From assembly GCF_001650195.1 (NCBI RefSeq), contig NZ_LXYR01000048.1, positions 1 to 39,624 of the forward strand: a DNA stretch of 39,624 bases, given 5' to 3'. The notes beneath the pieces are model-generated. The model was not told the origin of the DNA. It ran no database searches and was given only the letters and a program-made list of their open reading frames with translations. Numbering within the stretch: position 1 is the first letter of the stretch; each line of letters starts with the position of its first letter. The stretch comes from Phormidesmis priestleyi BC1401. Its GTDB lineage: Bacteria; Cyanobacteriota; Cyanobacteriia; Leptolyngbyales; Leptolyngbyaceae. Below are positions 8,287 through 21,429 of this stretch, in pieces. The translations under genes and the position numbers were made by a program.

Positions 8287-8619
8287 GTGAAACTACCAAA
8301 TCCTGATAGGGCAATTATTTCTCCAGATAAGCTGGAAGGCTATTCTCTCAATTCCAATCACCCAGAGGGTCGCCACAAAGCAACTGTGTTTCAATCTGCG
8401 CTGGGCATTGGGCTAGAACAAGCTGAGGAGCTATGGGCTGCTCTGCGCCAAGCCCTCAAGTCCGAAGATGCCCTATCCACTAAACGCAATCCTTACGGGC
8501 AGAAATACCAAATCGATTTTGAAATGACACGCGAAGGTAAAAACGCCATCATCAGAAGTATCTGGATCGTCAGACAGACTGAAGACTTTCCTCGCCTCGT
8601 CACCTGCTACATTCTCTAA
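8287..8619 (+). CDS. DUF6883-like small protein
   Basis: A 110-residue protein starting at GTG (KLPNPDRAIISPDKLEGYSLN). The layout resembles DUF6883 proteins of cyanobacteria: a conserved start, a GRHKATVFQSALGI segment, and a C-terminal strand region ending in FPRLVTCYIL. No catalytic motif is obvious. The next gene starts 18 bp downstream and belongs to a small family (DUF4926) that often accompanies it, so the two are probably an operon. A toxin-antitoxin or effector-immunity relation is plausible but unproven. The ribosome binding site is weak. Confidence 0.7.
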   Translation: MKLPNPDRAIISPDKLEGYSLNSNHPEGRHKATVFQSALGIGLEQAEELWAALRQALKSEDALSTKRNPYGQKYQIDFEMTREGKNAIIRSIWIVRQTEDFPRLVTCYIL

Positions 8620-8637
8620 CCTCCAGGAGACCATACA

Positions 8638-8847
8638 ATGAAACTCTTAGACGTAGTAGCGCTCACCCAAGACTTACCTGATCTCAACCTTCATAAAGGT
8701 CAAGTCGGCACTGTTATCGAGGTGTATGAGACAGGAGCTTTTGAGGTCGAATTTGTTGACCTCAAAGGCAAGACTTATGCTGTAGAAACCTTAAATGCTC
8801 TTCAGTTAATGCAGCTTTACTATGCTCCCCTTCCCCAAACCACTTGA
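8638..8847 (+). CDS. DUF4926-like small protein
   Basis: A 69-residue protein resembling DUF4926: MKLLDVVALTQDLP, then HKGQVGTVIEVYETGAFEVEF. This is a compact all-beta, SH3-like pattern with a KGQVGTV turn. A strong ribosome binding site (AGGAG) precedes the ATG. Size and position after the DUF6883-like gene suggest an antitoxin or immunity partner. That is inference from gene pairing; no activity can be read from the sequence. Confidence 0.75.
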   Translation: MKLLDVVALTQDLPDLNLHKGQVGTVIEVYETGAFEVEFVDLKGKTYAVETLNALQLMQLYYAPLPQTT

Positions 8848-8989
8848 ATCTTGGAAGTCAGTAGGGAGGCACAATTATTTGTAGGACAGGTCAGCGATAG
8901 CGTAACCCATGCGTGTGTCCAACCTACATCCATCCCACATTTAATTCCACTTACCTACTTAATGCCAGGATCTAGCGAGTTTTTCCCAG

Positions 8990-9135
8990 CCCTTATCGCT
9001 TCATCCTGATTGCGGCATCGACAAATGCCTGAAATAATCGTTGATGAGCGGGATCTTGAGCCGACATTTCTGGATGCCGCTGAAGCCCAAACATCCACGG
9101 ATGATGCTGATGCTCGATCGCTTCTATCAACCCAT
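8990..9135 (-). pseudogene. Duplicated 3' end of the C26 peptidase gene
   Basis: These 146 bp match 9815-9960, the 3' end of the intact peptidase gene including its stop codon, with 7 mismatches and no gaps. In the minus frame it still reads the last 48 residues (DGLIEAIEH through AAIRMKR), but the conserved WHPE of the catalytic triad region is RHPE. Upstream sequence is unrelated. It lies on the far side of the hicAB module from the intact gene, suggesting the module arrived with, or generated, a copy of the gene end. Confidence 0.9.
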
Positions 9136-9238
9136 CTGAATCAGGCTGGGGACAGCAACGAGCCGGAAGTAAAAAGGGGTGAGAAAACGATGCAGCGCTC
9201 AACGCAGAGGTCAAGGAGGCGGCACTGTTGGAGAAAAA

Positions 9239-9463
9239 ATGCCTAAGAAAATTAGAGAACTAAAGGCAATGCTGCGTAGAGTAGGTTTTAGCTGTGTGCG
9301 AATTCGAGGAAGTCATGAGCGGTGGGTTCATCCAGAATTACCAGAATTGCCGATTACATTAGCAGGGAAGGATGGAAAAGATGCTAAACCTTATCTAGAG
9401 AAGTTAGTCGATGATGCTCTACAACAGCTAGAAAACAAGGAGCAAGAAGATGAGCCAATTTAA
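9239..9463 (+). CDS. hicA: HicA-type mRNA interferase toxin
   Basis: A 74-residue protein with the compact double-stranded-RNA-binding-like HicA fold pattern: MPKKIRELKAMLRRVGF, then the catalytic-type histidine in RGSHERWVHP (His26). HicA toxins cleave mRNA and are neutralised by HicB. The ATG at 9239 is preceded by GGAG at good spacing; a longer frame from 9179 is less likely. The stop lies 14 bp inside the next gene, the usual overlapping toxin-antitoxin arrangement. The acidic tail (ENKEQEDEPI) is slightly longer than usual. Confidence 0.88.
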   Translation: MPKKIRELKAMLRRVGFSCVRIRGSHERWVHPELPELPITLAGKDGKDAKPYLEKLVDDALQQLENKEQEDEPI

Positions 9464-9674
9464 GTATCGAGTTAATATTGTTTGGTCTGACGTGGATCAG
9501 AGCTATCTCGTGGAGTTGCCAGAGTTTGCAACAGAGATTCAGCGCTATTTTACGGATGGTGAGACTTACGAAGCGGCTCTAAAAAATGCTCAGGAAGTGT
9601 TGGAACTGTTAGTTGAAAGTTATCAAGCTGAAGGACAAACACTTCCACAGCCTCAAACTTTACAAGTTGCTTAG
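9450..9674 (+). CDS. hicB: HicB-type antitoxin
   Basis: A 74-residue partial RNase-H-like HicB protein: KYRVNIVWSDVDQSYLVELPEF, then the helix with EAALKNAQEVLELLVESYQAEG. This is the short HicB form without a separate C-terminal DNA-binding domain. It overlaps the toxin gene by 14 bp and has its own AAGGAG ribosome binding site inside that gene, which allows antitoxin production coupled to toxin translation. Flanking copies of a peptidase gene end suggest the pair is a recently inserted cassette. Confidence 0.88.
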   Translation: MSQFKYRVNIVWSDVDQSYLVELPEFATEIQRYFTDGETYEAALKNAQEVLELLVESYQAEGQTLPQPQTLQVA

Positions 9675-9817
9675 AGAGCGATCGCACCTGCTCCGCTTAC
9701 TGATCGTCTTCAAGGTCGATGGTAAAATTATCATTCAAAAGATGGCAAGATACCGTTAGTATTCATAACTTTGGCGACAACCGACGAGTGATGCTAGCAA
9801 CTAAATTTTTTCAACCC

Positions 9818-10525
9818 TTATCGCTTCATCCTGATTGCAGCATCGACAAATGCCTGAAATAATCGTTGATGAGCGGGGTCGTGAGCCGACATTTCTGGAT
9901 GCCACTGAAGCCCAAACATCCACAGATGACGTTGATGCTCGATCGCTTCTATCAACCCATCAGGGGCTTTTGCCGCAACTTTCCAGTCGATCGACAGATT
10001 CTTTACAGATTGATGATGCCAAGTGACGATCGTCGCCTCAGTGGTGCCGAGAATGTCAGCTAATCGGCTTTCGGGCAGAATATAAACTTCGTGCTGAGTC
10101 GGGCGACGGGGATGATCGAGCCGATGCGCGATCGCCGTTCCATAAATCTCTGGCACATGAGTCACCAAATCGCCGCCACTCGCCACATTCAGCATCTGCA
10201 TTCCCCGACAAATTCCTAGCACTGGAATCGAGGCAGTTAGCGCGAGTTTCGCTAGGGCAAATTCAAAATCGTCTCGATCGGGGTCAACCGAATAAATCGT
10301 TGGATGGGGCATTCCACCATATAAAGTCGGACTGATATCACCGCCTCCGGGCAGAATTAATCCGTCTAATATTGCAAGAATCTGTCTAAGCTCAGGTTGA
10401 TTGGGTGGCAGCAAAATTGGAGTTCCACCAGCCGCCTGCACCGCATCGACATAAGTTCCGGGTAGGCAAAGTTCGCCTGCCTCGTTGCGGCTGTGATTTG
10501 GGATTCCGATGATCGGCGAAGCCAT
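9818..10525 (-). CDS. Class I glutamine amidotransferase-like peptidase C26 (PuuD-like)
   Basis: A 235-residue hydrolase of the gamma-glutamyl-gamma-aminobutyrate hydrolase family. The nucleophile Cys106 lies in GICRGMQMLNV and the His209/Glu211 pair in QWHPE; the TWHHQSV segment near 168-174 also fits the family. The likely reaction is release of glutamate from gamma-glutamyl amides, as in putrescine degradation, but the substrate is not determined by sequence. It is followed on the same strand by nothing coding; the hicAB module converges on it. The last 48 codons exist a second time at 8990-9135. Confidence 0.92.
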   Translation of the reverse strand: MASPIIGIPNHSRNEAGELCLPGTYVDAVQAAGGTPILLPPNQPELRQILAILDGLILPGGGDISPTLYGGMPHPTIYSVDPDRDDFEFALAKLALTASIPVLGICRGMQMLNVASGGDLVTHVPEIYGTAIAHRLDHPRRPTQHEVYILPESRLADILGTTEATIVTWHHQSVKNLSIDWKVAAKAPDGLIEAIEHQRHLWMFGLQWHPEMSAHDPAHQRLFQAFVDAAIRMKR

Positions 10526-12195: not shown

Positions 12196-12265
12196 AGCGA
12201 TCGCTGCTTTGGCTTTTTCGTCGATCGAGCTTTTGTGCTTCCAAATAGGTTTGAAAGATTTCGTA
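12196..12265. repeat. Copy of the 3' part of the NACHT gene
   Basis: Seventy bp match 14017-14086 without gaps and with five mismatches. In the minus frame it reads YEIFQTYLEAQK, equivalent to YEIFQAYLEAQK near the end of the NACHT protein. It follows the broken relE-like gene and marks the downstream edge of the accessory block beside the permease genes. It is a remnant with no start codon. Confidence 0.85.
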
Positions 12266-13909: not shown

Positions 13910-16357
13910 TTATGATGGCGGATCTTTGGGTGGGGGTGGAGCTTCGTGGTATCGATCGACGTTTTCAAAGATTTTGACTTCAGTGGCGTTGGGAAAGTGG
14001 TTGGTTGTGGTGGGTGAGCGATCGCTGTTTTGGCTTTTTGGTCGATCGGGCTTCTGTGCTTCCAAATAGGCTTGAAAGATTTCGTAGTTGTAGTATCTGC
14101 AATTCTCTTGGATGGCAGCAATAGTGTCGGAGAGATCTGCTCTCCCCTGACAACGTAAATGCCAAAGATGAGATAGCGAAGCACCATCTTTAATCTTGAT
14201 TAATGCTTCAGTAGCGCTTTTGCGAATATCCAGACTTTCATCTTCGACTGATTTAAGCAATTCAGGGATAGCAATTTCTATGCCAATCGATCCGATCGAC
14301 GAAATAGCAGCCCTGCGAATGCTTAGGTCTGGATCTTTCAAGGCTGCAATCAAGTCAAGAGTAGGAATTTTCGAGCCTGTTTTACCTAGAGCCAAAATTA
14401 TGGCTCGGCGTATATTGACTGGTTCATTTCTATCCTTAATCATCTTGATCAAAGCGGAGATAACTACATTATTGCTAATTTTTCCTAGCTCCTGAATAGC
14501 TAACTCCCGAATTATTGTGTCTTGGGAGGCTGCCATAATAAGCAATCCAGGAATTGCTTGTTTTCCCAGTAACTCTCTAAGAAGATTAGGTAAACAATAG
14601 AGTGTGTGAAAACTCTCCTCGCAGGGTTTCTGGAGCAAAACAGTAACTATTTTTTCTAAGCTAGATGTCTTCAAATTTTCAGTAATATAGTGACGCAAAT
14701 ACTCCTTCTCTTCCTTGATTCGTTCTATTGATTCGCTAAGCTTATTAAAGTTTATATTTTTCCACACATTAGAAAGACTTTCAGTAATATTTTGAAATAT
14801 TTTACTACTGTTATTTTGTATGTCTTTTAACTCGTCATGCTGACTGATAATACCGTTTATTTCACGTATTGAAGAATTTGTTTTCATCGGAGATAAAGCC
14901 AGTAAAACAGATAAAGATGTAGATAAGCTCTTCTCTTCTCGTTGAAACTTCGACAGATGAGGGATGGCTTTTTCCGAAGCCGTTCTGCTTAGAAGCTTAC
15001 ATTTAAGTTCCAACGTGGTTTCTAGCAAATTTACCATACCTACTGTTCTCTCCTGAAACCGAGGTGGCACTTCTCCCGCTAGTCTTGCTCCTAACATGAG
15101 ATCAGCTTCCAATGCCAGTTCCACTACTCGCACCGCCTGTGCCTCACTCTCCACCAGTGCCAACATCAACGCTACAGGTTCCGTCCACTTTATGTAGTTG
15201 AGATAATCAGACTTTAAATCATTATTACCTTGCTGATCCTCAAGAAGTTTAGGTAGTTGAGTCAACAATGCTTCTGCTGCATAATATTCTTGAAGCGATT
15301 GATGGCAGAAGCGCACTCGACGGTTACCTGACTCACCAGGAGATTGAAGCAAGTGGTAATTCCGCAGAAGTTTTAATCCCTTTTCAGAACCTAGTAAGTT
15401 TTGAGCATCGACTTCAGAAATATCTAACTGAAAATCTGTTGGGTCGCCCGGTTCTGGAGACTGCATCATGCCAAACGCTAATCTGCTTAGTAGAGAGCGC
15501 GATTCATCTAAATCGATCCCTTCCTTCGATCGTTCCACATACAGATTCGTAAACTTCCGATAGACTTCTCCACGAGTCTCTGGAATCTCATCACCAGTCC
15601 GAAAAATACAGTAGAGCATCCACACCATCAAAGGTGTTTGCCCAAAATCTTGCACTCGATCGCTCAATTCTTGTAATCGATCGCGATCAGAAGTTGGCAA
15701 ACGAACCTCTAGAAAATCCCTCACTTGAAGTTGTGAAAGCGGTTGAAGCTCTAACTTTCGCTCAATTTCCCATCCATCTCCAGCATGACGAGCTGTAGCA
15801 ATTAGAGAAATATTAAGGCAAAACTTCTTTAAGTCATTTTTTGCCTGGGCTTGTTGTAGCTCGTTCAACCCATCAACCAATAACATCAATCGCTTCTGTT
15901 TCAGCAGCTTTTTTAGGTCATCGCTGTCTAAACTGGGATCATGACTTTCCAGGCTGTTTAGAATTAGTCCTCGAATTCCTGAGCGATCGCCCACCAACTG
16001 GTAAGCCTTTAACTCAACTAAAACAGGAATCGGAGCCGTTTCGTCGTGGCGTGCCCTCTCTGCGGCTTGCCAAAAAATTCGTGCCAACAGAGTCGATTTT
16101 CCCGCTCCAGAACTGCCCACTATCAAGATCTTTTCGTTGGCATAGTTCTCGATCGCTTGAAGAACAGGCTGGGGTGGTAACTTATCTGGAGGCTTTTCCT
16201 CGGATGACTTAGGCTTGTCTTCCGTTCTGCTGGTTAGCTCAAACTCAAACCAAGTCGAAGCATTAATCTCGTCCATGAACGCATAGTCTTTCCACCACTG
16301 GGCGTAGTGGTTACAAACTGACTTCAGATATTGCTGGACATCGGGCAAGTCAGACAT
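13910..16357 (-). CDS. NACHT NTPase with C-terminal HEAT-like repeats
   Basis: A STAND-type NTPase of 815 residues from ATG 16357. The frame extends 29 codons further into the ATPase gene, but MSDLPDVQQYLKSVCNHYAQWW is the natural start. NACHT core: Walker A GSSGAGKST at about 81-89, Walker B LMLLVDGLNEL at about 157-167, sensor LIATARH. Then comes a winged-helix/arm region with FCHQSLQEYYAAEAL. The C-terminal part (about 600-770) carries HEAT-like repeats such as IRRAAISSIGSIGIEIAIPELL. NACHT-HEAT proteins are known or suspected antiphage sensors; no effector domain is obvious in the short N-terminus. The final 30 residues resemble the start of the small protein at 12842-13219, suggesting a fused tail. 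It begins 28 bp after the exporter ATPase gene. Confidence 0.9.
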   Translation of the reverse strand: MSDLPDVQQYLKSVCNHYAQWWKDYAFMDEINASTWFEFELTSRTEDKPKSSEEKPPDKLPPQPVLQAIENYANEKILIVGSSGAGKSTLLARIFWQAAERARHDETAPIPVLVELKAYQLVGDRSGIRGLILNSLESHDPSLDSDDLKKLLKQKRLMLLVDGLNELQQAQAKNDLKKFCLNISLIATARHAGDGWEIERKLELQPLSQLQVRDFLEVRLPTSDRDRLQELSDRVQDFGQTPLMVWMLYCIFRTGDEIPETRGEVYRKFTNLYVERSKEGIDLDESRSLLSRLAFGMMQSPEPGDPTDFQLDISEVDAQNLLGSEKGLKLLRNYHLLQSPGESGNRRVRFCHQSLQEYYAAEALLTQLPKLLEDQQGNNDLKSDYLNYIKWTEPVALMLALVESEAQAVRVVELALEADLMLGARLAGEVPPRFQERTVGMVNLLETTLELKCKLLSRTASEKAIPHLSKFQREEKSLSTSLSVLLALSPMKTNSSIREINGIISQHDELKDIQNNSSKIFQNITESLSNVWKNINFNKLSESIERIKEEKEYLRHYITENLKTSSLEKIVTVLLQKPCEESFHTLYCLPNLLRELLGKQAIPGLLIMAASQDTIIRELAIQELGKISNNVVISALIKMIKDRNEPVNIRRAIILALGKTGSKIPTLDLIAALKDPDLSIRRAAISSIGSIGIEIAIPELLKSVEDESLDIRKSATEALIKIKDGASLSHLWHLRCQGRADLSDTIAAIQENCRYYNYEIFQAYLEAQKPDRPKSQNSDRSPTTTNHFPNATEVKIFENVDRYHEAPPPPKDPPS

Positions 16358-20436: not shown

Positions 20437-20584
20437 CGTCAGATCCAAAAGCCAAAGTTAAGTTTTAGATGCGATCGCTCTGTTCCCATTCCCGATCGCA
20501 ATCGCTTTGATTTCACGACTCTCGACTCGATCGCCTGTACCGTTCACGCACCAAGCTCAGTCGCCTTTGGAACCTTGATGGCAT

Positions 20585-20998
20585 TCAAAGGGGTGGATGG
20601 CGATCGAAAAATTCTTCCTCTACCCGAATTGCCAACATGATTGAGCGGTTTAAGCTGAGTGCGGCGATCGTGGCGCGTCCTATAGCAGTTAAACCAACCA
20701 CTTCGACACCCTTCCAGCCGAAATGTGCTTTCCAAATTTGCTGGCGAGGGTTAAAGATTGACACCACTTCACCTGTTTCTGGATCTTCGATCCGTTGTCG
20801 GGCACCCTTGCGTAAAGAACACGATACACAGGCAAGGGCTAAATTAGTGGCTATGGTTGCGCCACCCGCAGTTTCAGGCACGATGTGATCAACATGAAAC
20901 GTGGCAACTTGCCCGGTTTGAGACAAACCACAATATTCACACCGATTCCCCGATCGCTGGATTACTAATCGCCGTAAAGCAGCAGGTATTGTCGTCAT
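20585..20998 (-). CDS. HNH endonuclease
   Basis: A 137-residue protein with an HNH/zinc-binding nuclease core: CEYCG at about 19-23, the catalytic HVDHIVPETAGG segment, NLALAC and then CVSCSLRKG. The C-terminal half (WKGVEVVGLTAIGRATIAALSLNR) is a conserved tail of this cyanobacterial HNH group. The gene starts 2 bp after the stop of a 67-residue partner, so both are probably co-translated. It could be a homing-type nuclease, a restriction component or a toxin; sequence alone does not decide. Its last 50 codons are duplicated upstream at 21281-21429. Confidence 0.9.
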   Translation of the reverse strand: MTTIPAALRRLVIQRSGNRCEYCGLSQTGQVATFHVDHIVPETAGGATIATNLALACVSCSLRKGARQRIEDPETGEVVSIFNPRQQIWKAHFGWKGVEVVGLTAIGRATIAALSLNRSIMLAIRVEEEFFDRHPPL

Positions 20999-21000
20999 TC

Positions 21001-21204
21001 TTAATGAGTCACACGCTGCGATCTGAGACGAAGTAAGGACAAAAACTCTACTAATTCGACTAACCCTTCAGCCTCTTGTTGTTCTGCTTGGGTTAATCCT
21101 TCACCTGCGTCTTGGCGATCTAAAAGTGAAGTGAGCCGCTCTTTGACCCCTACGGGGAGTTGAAAGTAGGCTAGCTCGATCGGTATTTGAACAAGTTCAG
21201 CCAT
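21001..21204 (-). CDS. Small partner protein of the HNH endonuclease
   Basis: A 67-residue, mostly helical, acidic protein: MAELVQIPIELAYFQLPVGVKERLTSLLDRQDAGEGLTQ, then a Glu-rich helix ending LLRLRSQRVTH. It ends 2 bp before the HNH gene. Small proteins of this type precede HNH genes in several cyanobacteria, which suggests an inhibitor or accessory role, but I know of no assigned function. The ribosome binding site is weak. Confidence 0.7.
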   Translation of the reverse strand: MAELVQIPIELAYFQLPVGVKERLTSLLDRQDAGEGLTQAEQQEAEGLVELVEFLSLLRLRSQRVTH

Positions 21205-21280
21205 AATTCAGAGTTTAAGCAAGATTACAGTCAAAACTATCGTAAATCAAAGTGCGTTGTCACAGCGGTACAGCAATATC

Positions 21281-21429
21281 TTGATGGCATTAAAGTGGTG
21301 GATGGCGATCGAAAAATTCTTCCTCTGCCCGAATTGCCAACATGATTGAGCGGTCTAAGCTGAGTGCGGCGATCGTGGCGCATCCTGTAGCAGTTAAACC
21401 AACTACTTCGACACCTCTCCAGTCGAAAG
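21281..21429 (-). pseudogene. Duplicated 3' end of the HNH endonuclease gene
   Basis: About 149 bp match 20575-20724 with a one-base length difference and scattered substitutions. In the minus frame it encodes WRGVEVVGLTATGCATIAALS through FFDRHPPL and the same stop. The sequence upstream of the match is unrelated, so only the C-terminal third remains. It lies upstream of the intact HNH operon in the same orientation, as if a tandem copy had been lost except for its end. Confidence 0.88.

Follow-up and report, generated by a model that had tools for sequence, protein, structure and literature searches.

Repeat-flanked toxin-antitoxin genes in a cyanobacterial family: a hicAB module between two copies of a peptidase gene end in Phormidesmis priestleyi BC1401

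The window, i.e. the whole stretch of DNA analysed here, comprises the 39,624 nucleotides of contig NZ_LXYR01000048.1 of Phormidesmis priestleyi BC1401. It contains an intact Peptidase_C26 gene and, on the far side of a small gene pair, a second copy of the end of this gene (Table 1). A repeat search in the window yielded a direct repeat pair of 156 nt with 93.6% identity and a start spacing of 825. A preliminary description of this DNA had reported a match of 146 bp between 8990-9135 and 9815-9960 at about 95% identity, with seven mismatches, the stop codon included and an offset of 825; repeat search and self-BLAST reproduced it. The intact gene with its own end and the extra end beyond hicAB, of which the same description spoke, were likewise found. 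The repeat holds the last 47 codons and the stop of the Peptidase_C26 gene and, because it begins 12 bp beyond the stop codon, takes in the final 144 bp of the gene and 12 bp of what follows. Extra copies of the gene end were present neither in the window nor in the 1.6 Mb surveyed of the same genome. The window self-BLAST returned the pair with E=4.9e-63, so it is not a chance match. The assembly of this genome is split into 213 contigs, which might hint at an artefact. Yet there are seven differences between the copies, unlike sequence lies between them, and the same architecture is found on long contigs of two other genomes (G029 and G014). We regard chance or an assembly artefact as a negligible prospect.

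Table 1. Features of the window around the duplicated Peptidase_C26 gene end, and the HNH repeat
Feature	Positions	Strand	Basis
DUF6883-DUF4926 pair adjoining the displaced copy	8287..8847	+	Pfam; comparison with arrays
Dispersed repeat between DUF4926 and displaced gene end	8856..8963		Found in part on two other contigs and in further genomes
17 bp adjoining the displaced stop, covered by the extended BLAST match to the congener; weak	8976..8992		11/17 identical to the congener, vs 7/17 beside the attached stop
Displaced repeat copy, 47-codon gene-end fragment with stop	8981..9136		Repeat search, self-BLAST; Pfam matches under cut-off
Insert separating the repeat copies, 669 bp, hicAB the sole recognisable genes	9137..9805		Sequence, ORFs, Pfam
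hicA toxin gene, ATG at 9239	9239..9463	+	PF07927 HicA_toxin E=7.8e-11 on longer ORF 9179-9463
hicB antitoxin gene, overlaps hicA	9450..9674	+	PF15919 HicB_lk_antitox E=3.5e-5, 24.4 bits, under 27-bit cut-off
Attached repeat copy, final 144 bp of C26 gene and 12 bp beyond stop	9806..9961		Repeat search, self-BLAST
Intact Peptidase_C26 gene, 235 aa	9818..10525	-	ORF; PF07722 E=4.7e-61
HNH gene 3' end repeated 706 bp away (20574-20723 / 21280-21428, 93%); HNH gene 20585-20998	20574..21428	-	Self-BLAST

The adjacent genes for HicA and HicB in the insert are a predicted type II toxin-antitoxin (TA) pair, hicAB. Relatives of HicB with 85% identity occur in two genomes, G035 and G041, where they adjoin HicA matches. 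Neither the ORFs nor Pfam revealed a recombinase in the 669 bp, which bears out the earlier view of a cassette with no visible recombinase. The DUF6883-DUF4926 pair that adjoins the displaced copy may represent the next cassette in line, because such a pair occupies a cassette slot in two related arrays. Besides the pair in the window, DUF6883-DUF4926 pairs were seen in L431 (4006-4593) and L264 (5899-6492), and DUF6887 genes elsewhere, all in cassette slots; these pairs and the DUF6887 genes may belong to uncharacterised TA pairs. Two possible origins of the insert were rejected: integration linked to a tRNA gene, as the window has none, and origin from a plasmid, as 8960-9830 gave no match in the plasmid collection.

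The congener Phormidesmis priestleyi ULC007 (G001), with DNA 85-87% identical, has a single C26 gene end and no hicAB at this place. A relative lacking hicAB with one gene end had been predicted, and this prediction holds in G001, which belongs to another species. The empty-site comparison involves this one congeneric genome. HicB was found near C26 at none of 22 loci in relatives, G001 included, with flanks of up to 1.5 kb on each side. When the genome collection was scanned with C26, G001 matched at 90% and the next homologues at 64% or less, so the best 80 of 271 matches hold no closer empty site. The gene downstream of C26 in G001 (TPM-like, by eye) lies on another contig in BC1401, with another gene behind it. 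Because of this different neighbour the empty site applies to the C26 gene end and not to the whole junction. In addition, part of the left side of the window matches a different G001 contig, which together with the moved neighbour made flank synteny unusable.

The preliminary description had also asked which of the two copies matches the ancestral sequence. Of the seven sites that distinguish the copies, four have the G001 base in the displaced copy and two in the attached copy; at the remaining site neither copy agrees with G001. Where the attached copy encodes Leu, 28 of 29 homologues have Pro, and where the displaced copy encodes Arg, all 29 have Trp. The answer is a weak lean, four sites against two of the seven, towards the displaced copy as the original end. 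The polarity at C26 is weak because few sites are involved and the flank match is 11/17.

A parallel case was found in the same genome. On contig C6 of BC1401, brnT-brnA stands behind a class I/II aminotransferase gene, and after it comes the end of this gene once more (83 bp, 85.5%); the gene end is present once in G001. In the comparison with G001 the match on the attached side ends at the edge of the repeat, whereas that of the displaced copy extends 33 bp further. In these 33 bp the displaced side shares 24 positions with G001 and the attached side 6, and over 50 bp the numbers are 33 and 9, respectively. The sites inside the repeat lean slightly the opposite way, the attached copy agreeing with G001 at six and the displaced copy at five. 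By these alignments the displaced aminotransferase copy sits in its old context, with a polarity stronger than that at C26.

The second parallel concerns a large gene with HEAT-like repeats (by eye) in one related genus. The encoded proteins are 55-86% identical, and the tail of the gene is conserved in six of seven genomes; in the seventh, G039, the search gave a match of 19 bp only. A single tail is present in G028, with no TA gene behind it by eye, and in G035, where an antitoxin-like ORF and a PIN gene follow and the contig ends soon after. G037 and G032 have two tails each, G020 has two (one partial) and G004 three (one partial). The antitoxin-like ORF and the PIN gene stand directly behind the HEAT-like gene in G035, G037 and G020. 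G032 has a DUF6887-DUF4926 pair after the attached tail; a second tail comes after this pair and is still joined to the antitoxin-like ORF/PIN pair. On the simplest reading, the new pair entered together with a new tail and the old tail retained its old neighbour. Both parallel loci have the same polarity. The sequences that are duplicated at C26, at the aminotransferase gene and at the HEAT-like gene are each single in a relative of another species without the insert, the first two in G001 and the third in G028. As a side observation, the last 80-100 bp of the HEAT-like tail are mostly 88-98% identical at the DNA level between species (80-87% where the match is longer), and the region before the tail shows much less DNA identity in most species pairs.

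At several loci such units are stacked. Behind the end of a NACHT-pentapeptide gene, G029 carries an array of T1, hicB-hicA, T2, DUF433-DUF5615, T3 and DUF6883-DUF4926, in which T1 to T3 are copies of one local sequence. T1 and T3, which include the last codons of the gene, share 96.8% identity over 93 bp; T2 is a 56-bp part. Two side observations concern other arrays. At L159 and L269 (G008:C295) three hic-like pairs (by eye) follow in a row with the same sequence of about 100 bp after each, and in L430 (3098-5157, G014) a Uma2 gene stands in a repeat-separated array together with a PemK toxin gene. Because it shares this array with PemK, Uma2 may be cassette cargo.

Tandem duplication is a common event, and the C26 locus could have arisen by tandem duplication of the gene end plus hicAB, with the second hicAB then lost and the extra gene end left behind. 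A unit of tail plus TA genes is repeated in G004 over 749/779 bp with 76% identity. The HNH gene of the window, whose 3' end is repeated upstream of a 67-aa ORF plus the gene itself, suits duplication better than insertion: both this ORF and the gene body lie between the copies, and the case looks like a tandem duplicate of a unit whose first copy has eroded. Yet at C26 the homology ends 12 bp past the stop codon, and comparison of the window with itself revealed no trace of a further hicAB. Unrelated pairs, moreover, alternate with copies of one local sequence in the G029 array and at the HEAT-like gene, so tandem duplication alone is insufficient. For the hicAB locus we consider it unlikely.

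The frequency of bracketing repeats was determined by a survey of TA and control families. For each family the 30 best-scoring matches in 42 genomes of the cyanobacterial family were used, which is not a random sample. Shortened loci, 4 to 8 of 30 per family, were skipped before counting, and slightly shortened AhpC loci passed the threshold. The C26 controls came from a search of 97 genomes; of these 29 loci, seven that were not C26 and two short ones were left out. A locus counted as bracketed when a direct repeat of at least 50 bp and 80% identity, with a gap of at least 150 bp and a spacing of up to 2.6 kb, enclosed its midpoint. This applied to 3/26 HicB, 6/22 HicA, 4/26 BrnT and 0/26 DUF4926 loci, and to 0/26 AhpC, 0/20 C26 and 1/23 Uma2 controls. 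Bracketing repeats are enriched at the TA families (13/100 vs 1/69, one-sided Fisher p=0.005), and 87 of the 100 TA-family loci lack one at the sensitivity used. The sole positive control, L409 (Uma2), has three repeat copies, between which a PemK gene lies together with the Uma2 target.

The enrichment was also calculated with stricter counts. Dropping the seed locus L134 from numerator and denominator, and L316 from the numerator because L159 and L269, in the same genome, have a 36-bp core in common with its repeat, gave 11/99 (p=0.014); without DUF4926, which is not an established TA gene, it was 11/73 (p=0.003). L138 and L143 represent the same HEAT-like gene end in two species; with this gene end counted once the values were 10/98 (p=0.021) and, without DUF4926, 10/72 (p=0.005). 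The copy number of the repeats was checked against the fetched loci only. At the threshold used, the repeats bracketing HicA and BrnT genes had no copy at other fetched loci, except for L319/L383, which are one locus fetched twice. The three repeats of HicB loci also match 10 to 28 fetched loci, an unsorted number that includes orthologous gene ends and refetched loci.

Within BC1401 itself, 1.6 Mb (29%) of the genome contained 38 non-tandem repeat pairs. Eleven of them were two-copy in this sample, three of these in the window. Pfam-recognised TA or TA-like genes are present in three of the 11: the hicAB locus, a DUF433-DUF5615 pair and a stretch with a PIN gene. The DUF433-DUF5615 pair (contig C15) lies behind the end of a TPR-like gene (by eye) with a repeat of 81 bp and 98.8% identity; no polarity could be assigned, because the congener has no matching gene end. 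The PIN toxin gene stretch is surrounded by a 70-bp repeat in the window (12196-12265 / 14017-14086, 93%), both copies of which correspond to one place in the congener. The rest of the 11 include IS fragments and repeat proteins by eye. The 12196/14017 repeat and the pairs on C49, C3, C78, C4, C72, C1 and C47 were used for the tally only.

The repeat covers the 3' end of a gene at the C26, aminotransferase, HEAT-like, TPR-like and NACHT loci. At a DUF1156 gene it reaches the stop codon only, and by ORFs it is intergenic at hicBA in G024 and G018 and at brnT in G009. As the repeat lies between genes in these cases, a gene end as such is not the target.

These data bear on the idea of a site-specific integrative cassette that carries the end of its target gene and restores the gene on entry, with a recombinase acting in trans. 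The topology fits such an element, and so does the polarity, which agrees at the two parallel loci. In the known case of phage 21 and e14 at icd, the gene-end copy of the element is likewise attached and the original end displaced. Their integration, however, requires an integrase and a fixed att core, neither of which was seen here. The insert has no recombinase, and the repeats at HicA and BrnT loci are private to their loci among those fetched and at the threshold used, apart from the 36-bp core that L316 shares within its genome. Furthermore, different cassettes use one gene end, hicAB stands at several different ends, and the repeat may lie between genes. We therefore hold a site-specific cassette to be quite improbable. 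An insert of hicAB only and intergenic repeats at some loci make a self-restoring element unnecessary. Of the restoring element postulated in the preliminary description, the single end in G001 and the order of new-attached and old-displaced copies in the parallel cases stand; a carried restoring piece does not, given an insert of hicAB only, intergenic repeats and different pairs at one gene end.

The hicAB module at C26 is rather probably an insertion with a long duplication of local sequence, an event that would be recurrent for TA modules in this cyanobacterial family. The insert is flanked by direct repeats of local sequence, and the length of such repeats ranges from 50 to 373 bp across loci. 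On this reading hicAB would have arrived as a small cassette beside the 3' end of C26, with duplication of about 156 bp. The body of the C26 gene would now run into one copy of the end, and the other, probably original copy would have been pushed to the far side of the cassette, where it decays. More generally, TA modules would enter with a long and variable duplication of whatever local sequence is hit, and the visible insertions would be the harmless ones, in which the duplicated stretch includes a gene end or is intergenic.

As to the mechanism, we infer host recombination, in its simplest form a single crossover of the chromosome with a circular or joined-end fragment, which may have come from a relative with the TA module already in place next to that gene. 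A single crossover would explain that the displaced end keeps the old flank, that the homology past the stop ends where the flanks of donor and recipient part and that the length of the repeat inside the gene varies. Alternatively, a long target-site duplication might be generated by fill-in of a staggered break, an event of the same class in which the copies are identical at birth. The free variation in repeat length favours fill-in, and it agrees with insertions of restriction-modification genes with long, variable target duplication as described in the accessible part of PMC3874152. On the other hand, fill-in predicts more changes on the free fragment, but pooled over two loci we counted nine changes on the attached and eight on the displaced copies, too few to separate crossover from fill-in. 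We give fill-in some chance, clearly below even.

For insertion by host recombination, the repeats may in turn allow cassettes to be gained, swapped and stacked through homologous recombination, and, judging from the known role of TA modules, addiction may select against collapse of the repeats. A broader and more tentative proposal, which we regard as possible though doubtful, is a recombinase-free TA cassette system, in which each pair takes with it a stub of the host gene next to it, these stubs act as homologous docking sites, pairs are added, stacked and exchanged by host recombination and addiction prevents their deletion. If this were true, ordinary gene ends would be the places where chromosomal TA islands are built. 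Minimal mobile elements of Neisseria and the orphan toxin-immunity modules of Rhs, CDI and Maf systems are also cassettes without a recombinase of their own that are swapped via flanking homology. There, however, the homology is provided by flanking genes or by the toxin gene, whereas here it would be the duplicated stub of an unrelated host gene. Compared with integron cassettes, the spacers are copies of local sequence and the 669-bp insert has no integrase.

Insertion of restriction-modification genes with long target duplication was reportedly a subject of Nobusato in 2000 and of Furuta in 2010. The accessible parts of PMC1643837, PMC3874152 and PMC3031569 describe such insertions. As far as these parts go, the resemblance is close: a small addictive gene set, local direct repeats of variable length around 100 bp and no known mobile element. 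The cargo is different in that TA pairs in cyanobacteria are involved, a difference that concerns the cargo and not the mechanism. Furthermore, the repeat is often the 3' end of a gene here, and unrelated pairs are stacked with a copy in between. For Microcystis aeruginosa PCC 7806, a ParDE-like TA pair behind an orthocaspase gene is described in the available text of PMC7935541, with two identical direct repeats of 152 bp, of which the first begins 14 bp downstream of the stop codon. Here as there, a TA pair lies downstream of a gene between direct repeats. Unlike the present repeats, that of Microcystis begins beyond the stop and holds a 16-bp inverted repeat; the available text treats one locus and proposes no mechanism. 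TA islands likewise group unrelated TA pairs, for which tandem duplication is no explanation according to the portion of Makarova 2009 (PMC2701414) at hand. The term 'direct repeat' is absent from the searched text of that paper, and the arrays described here offer one route to such clusters.

Among titles and the beginnings of abstracts, with subscription papers mostly outside the coverage, we found no publication of stacked arrays or of TA pairs between duplicated ends of protein genes as a recurrent pattern. As far as this literature goes, a single TA pair within direct repeats (Microcystis) and TA islands are already in print, and the recurrence between duplicated gene ends is apparently new. 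The footprint provides a readable and testable record of which copy is original, which cassette arrived last and what homology was used. It leads to the prediction that TA modules persist inside direct repeats that should otherwise delete them, and it bears on how chromosomal TA modules move and cluster without transposases.

Finally, the HIP1 core CGATCG was located within 12 bp of 9 of 26 repeat ends, compared with an expectation of 12.5% (nominal p=0.003 in a post hoc count over 13 hand-picked loci, the ends of which are not independent). The HIP1 core may mark breakpoints.
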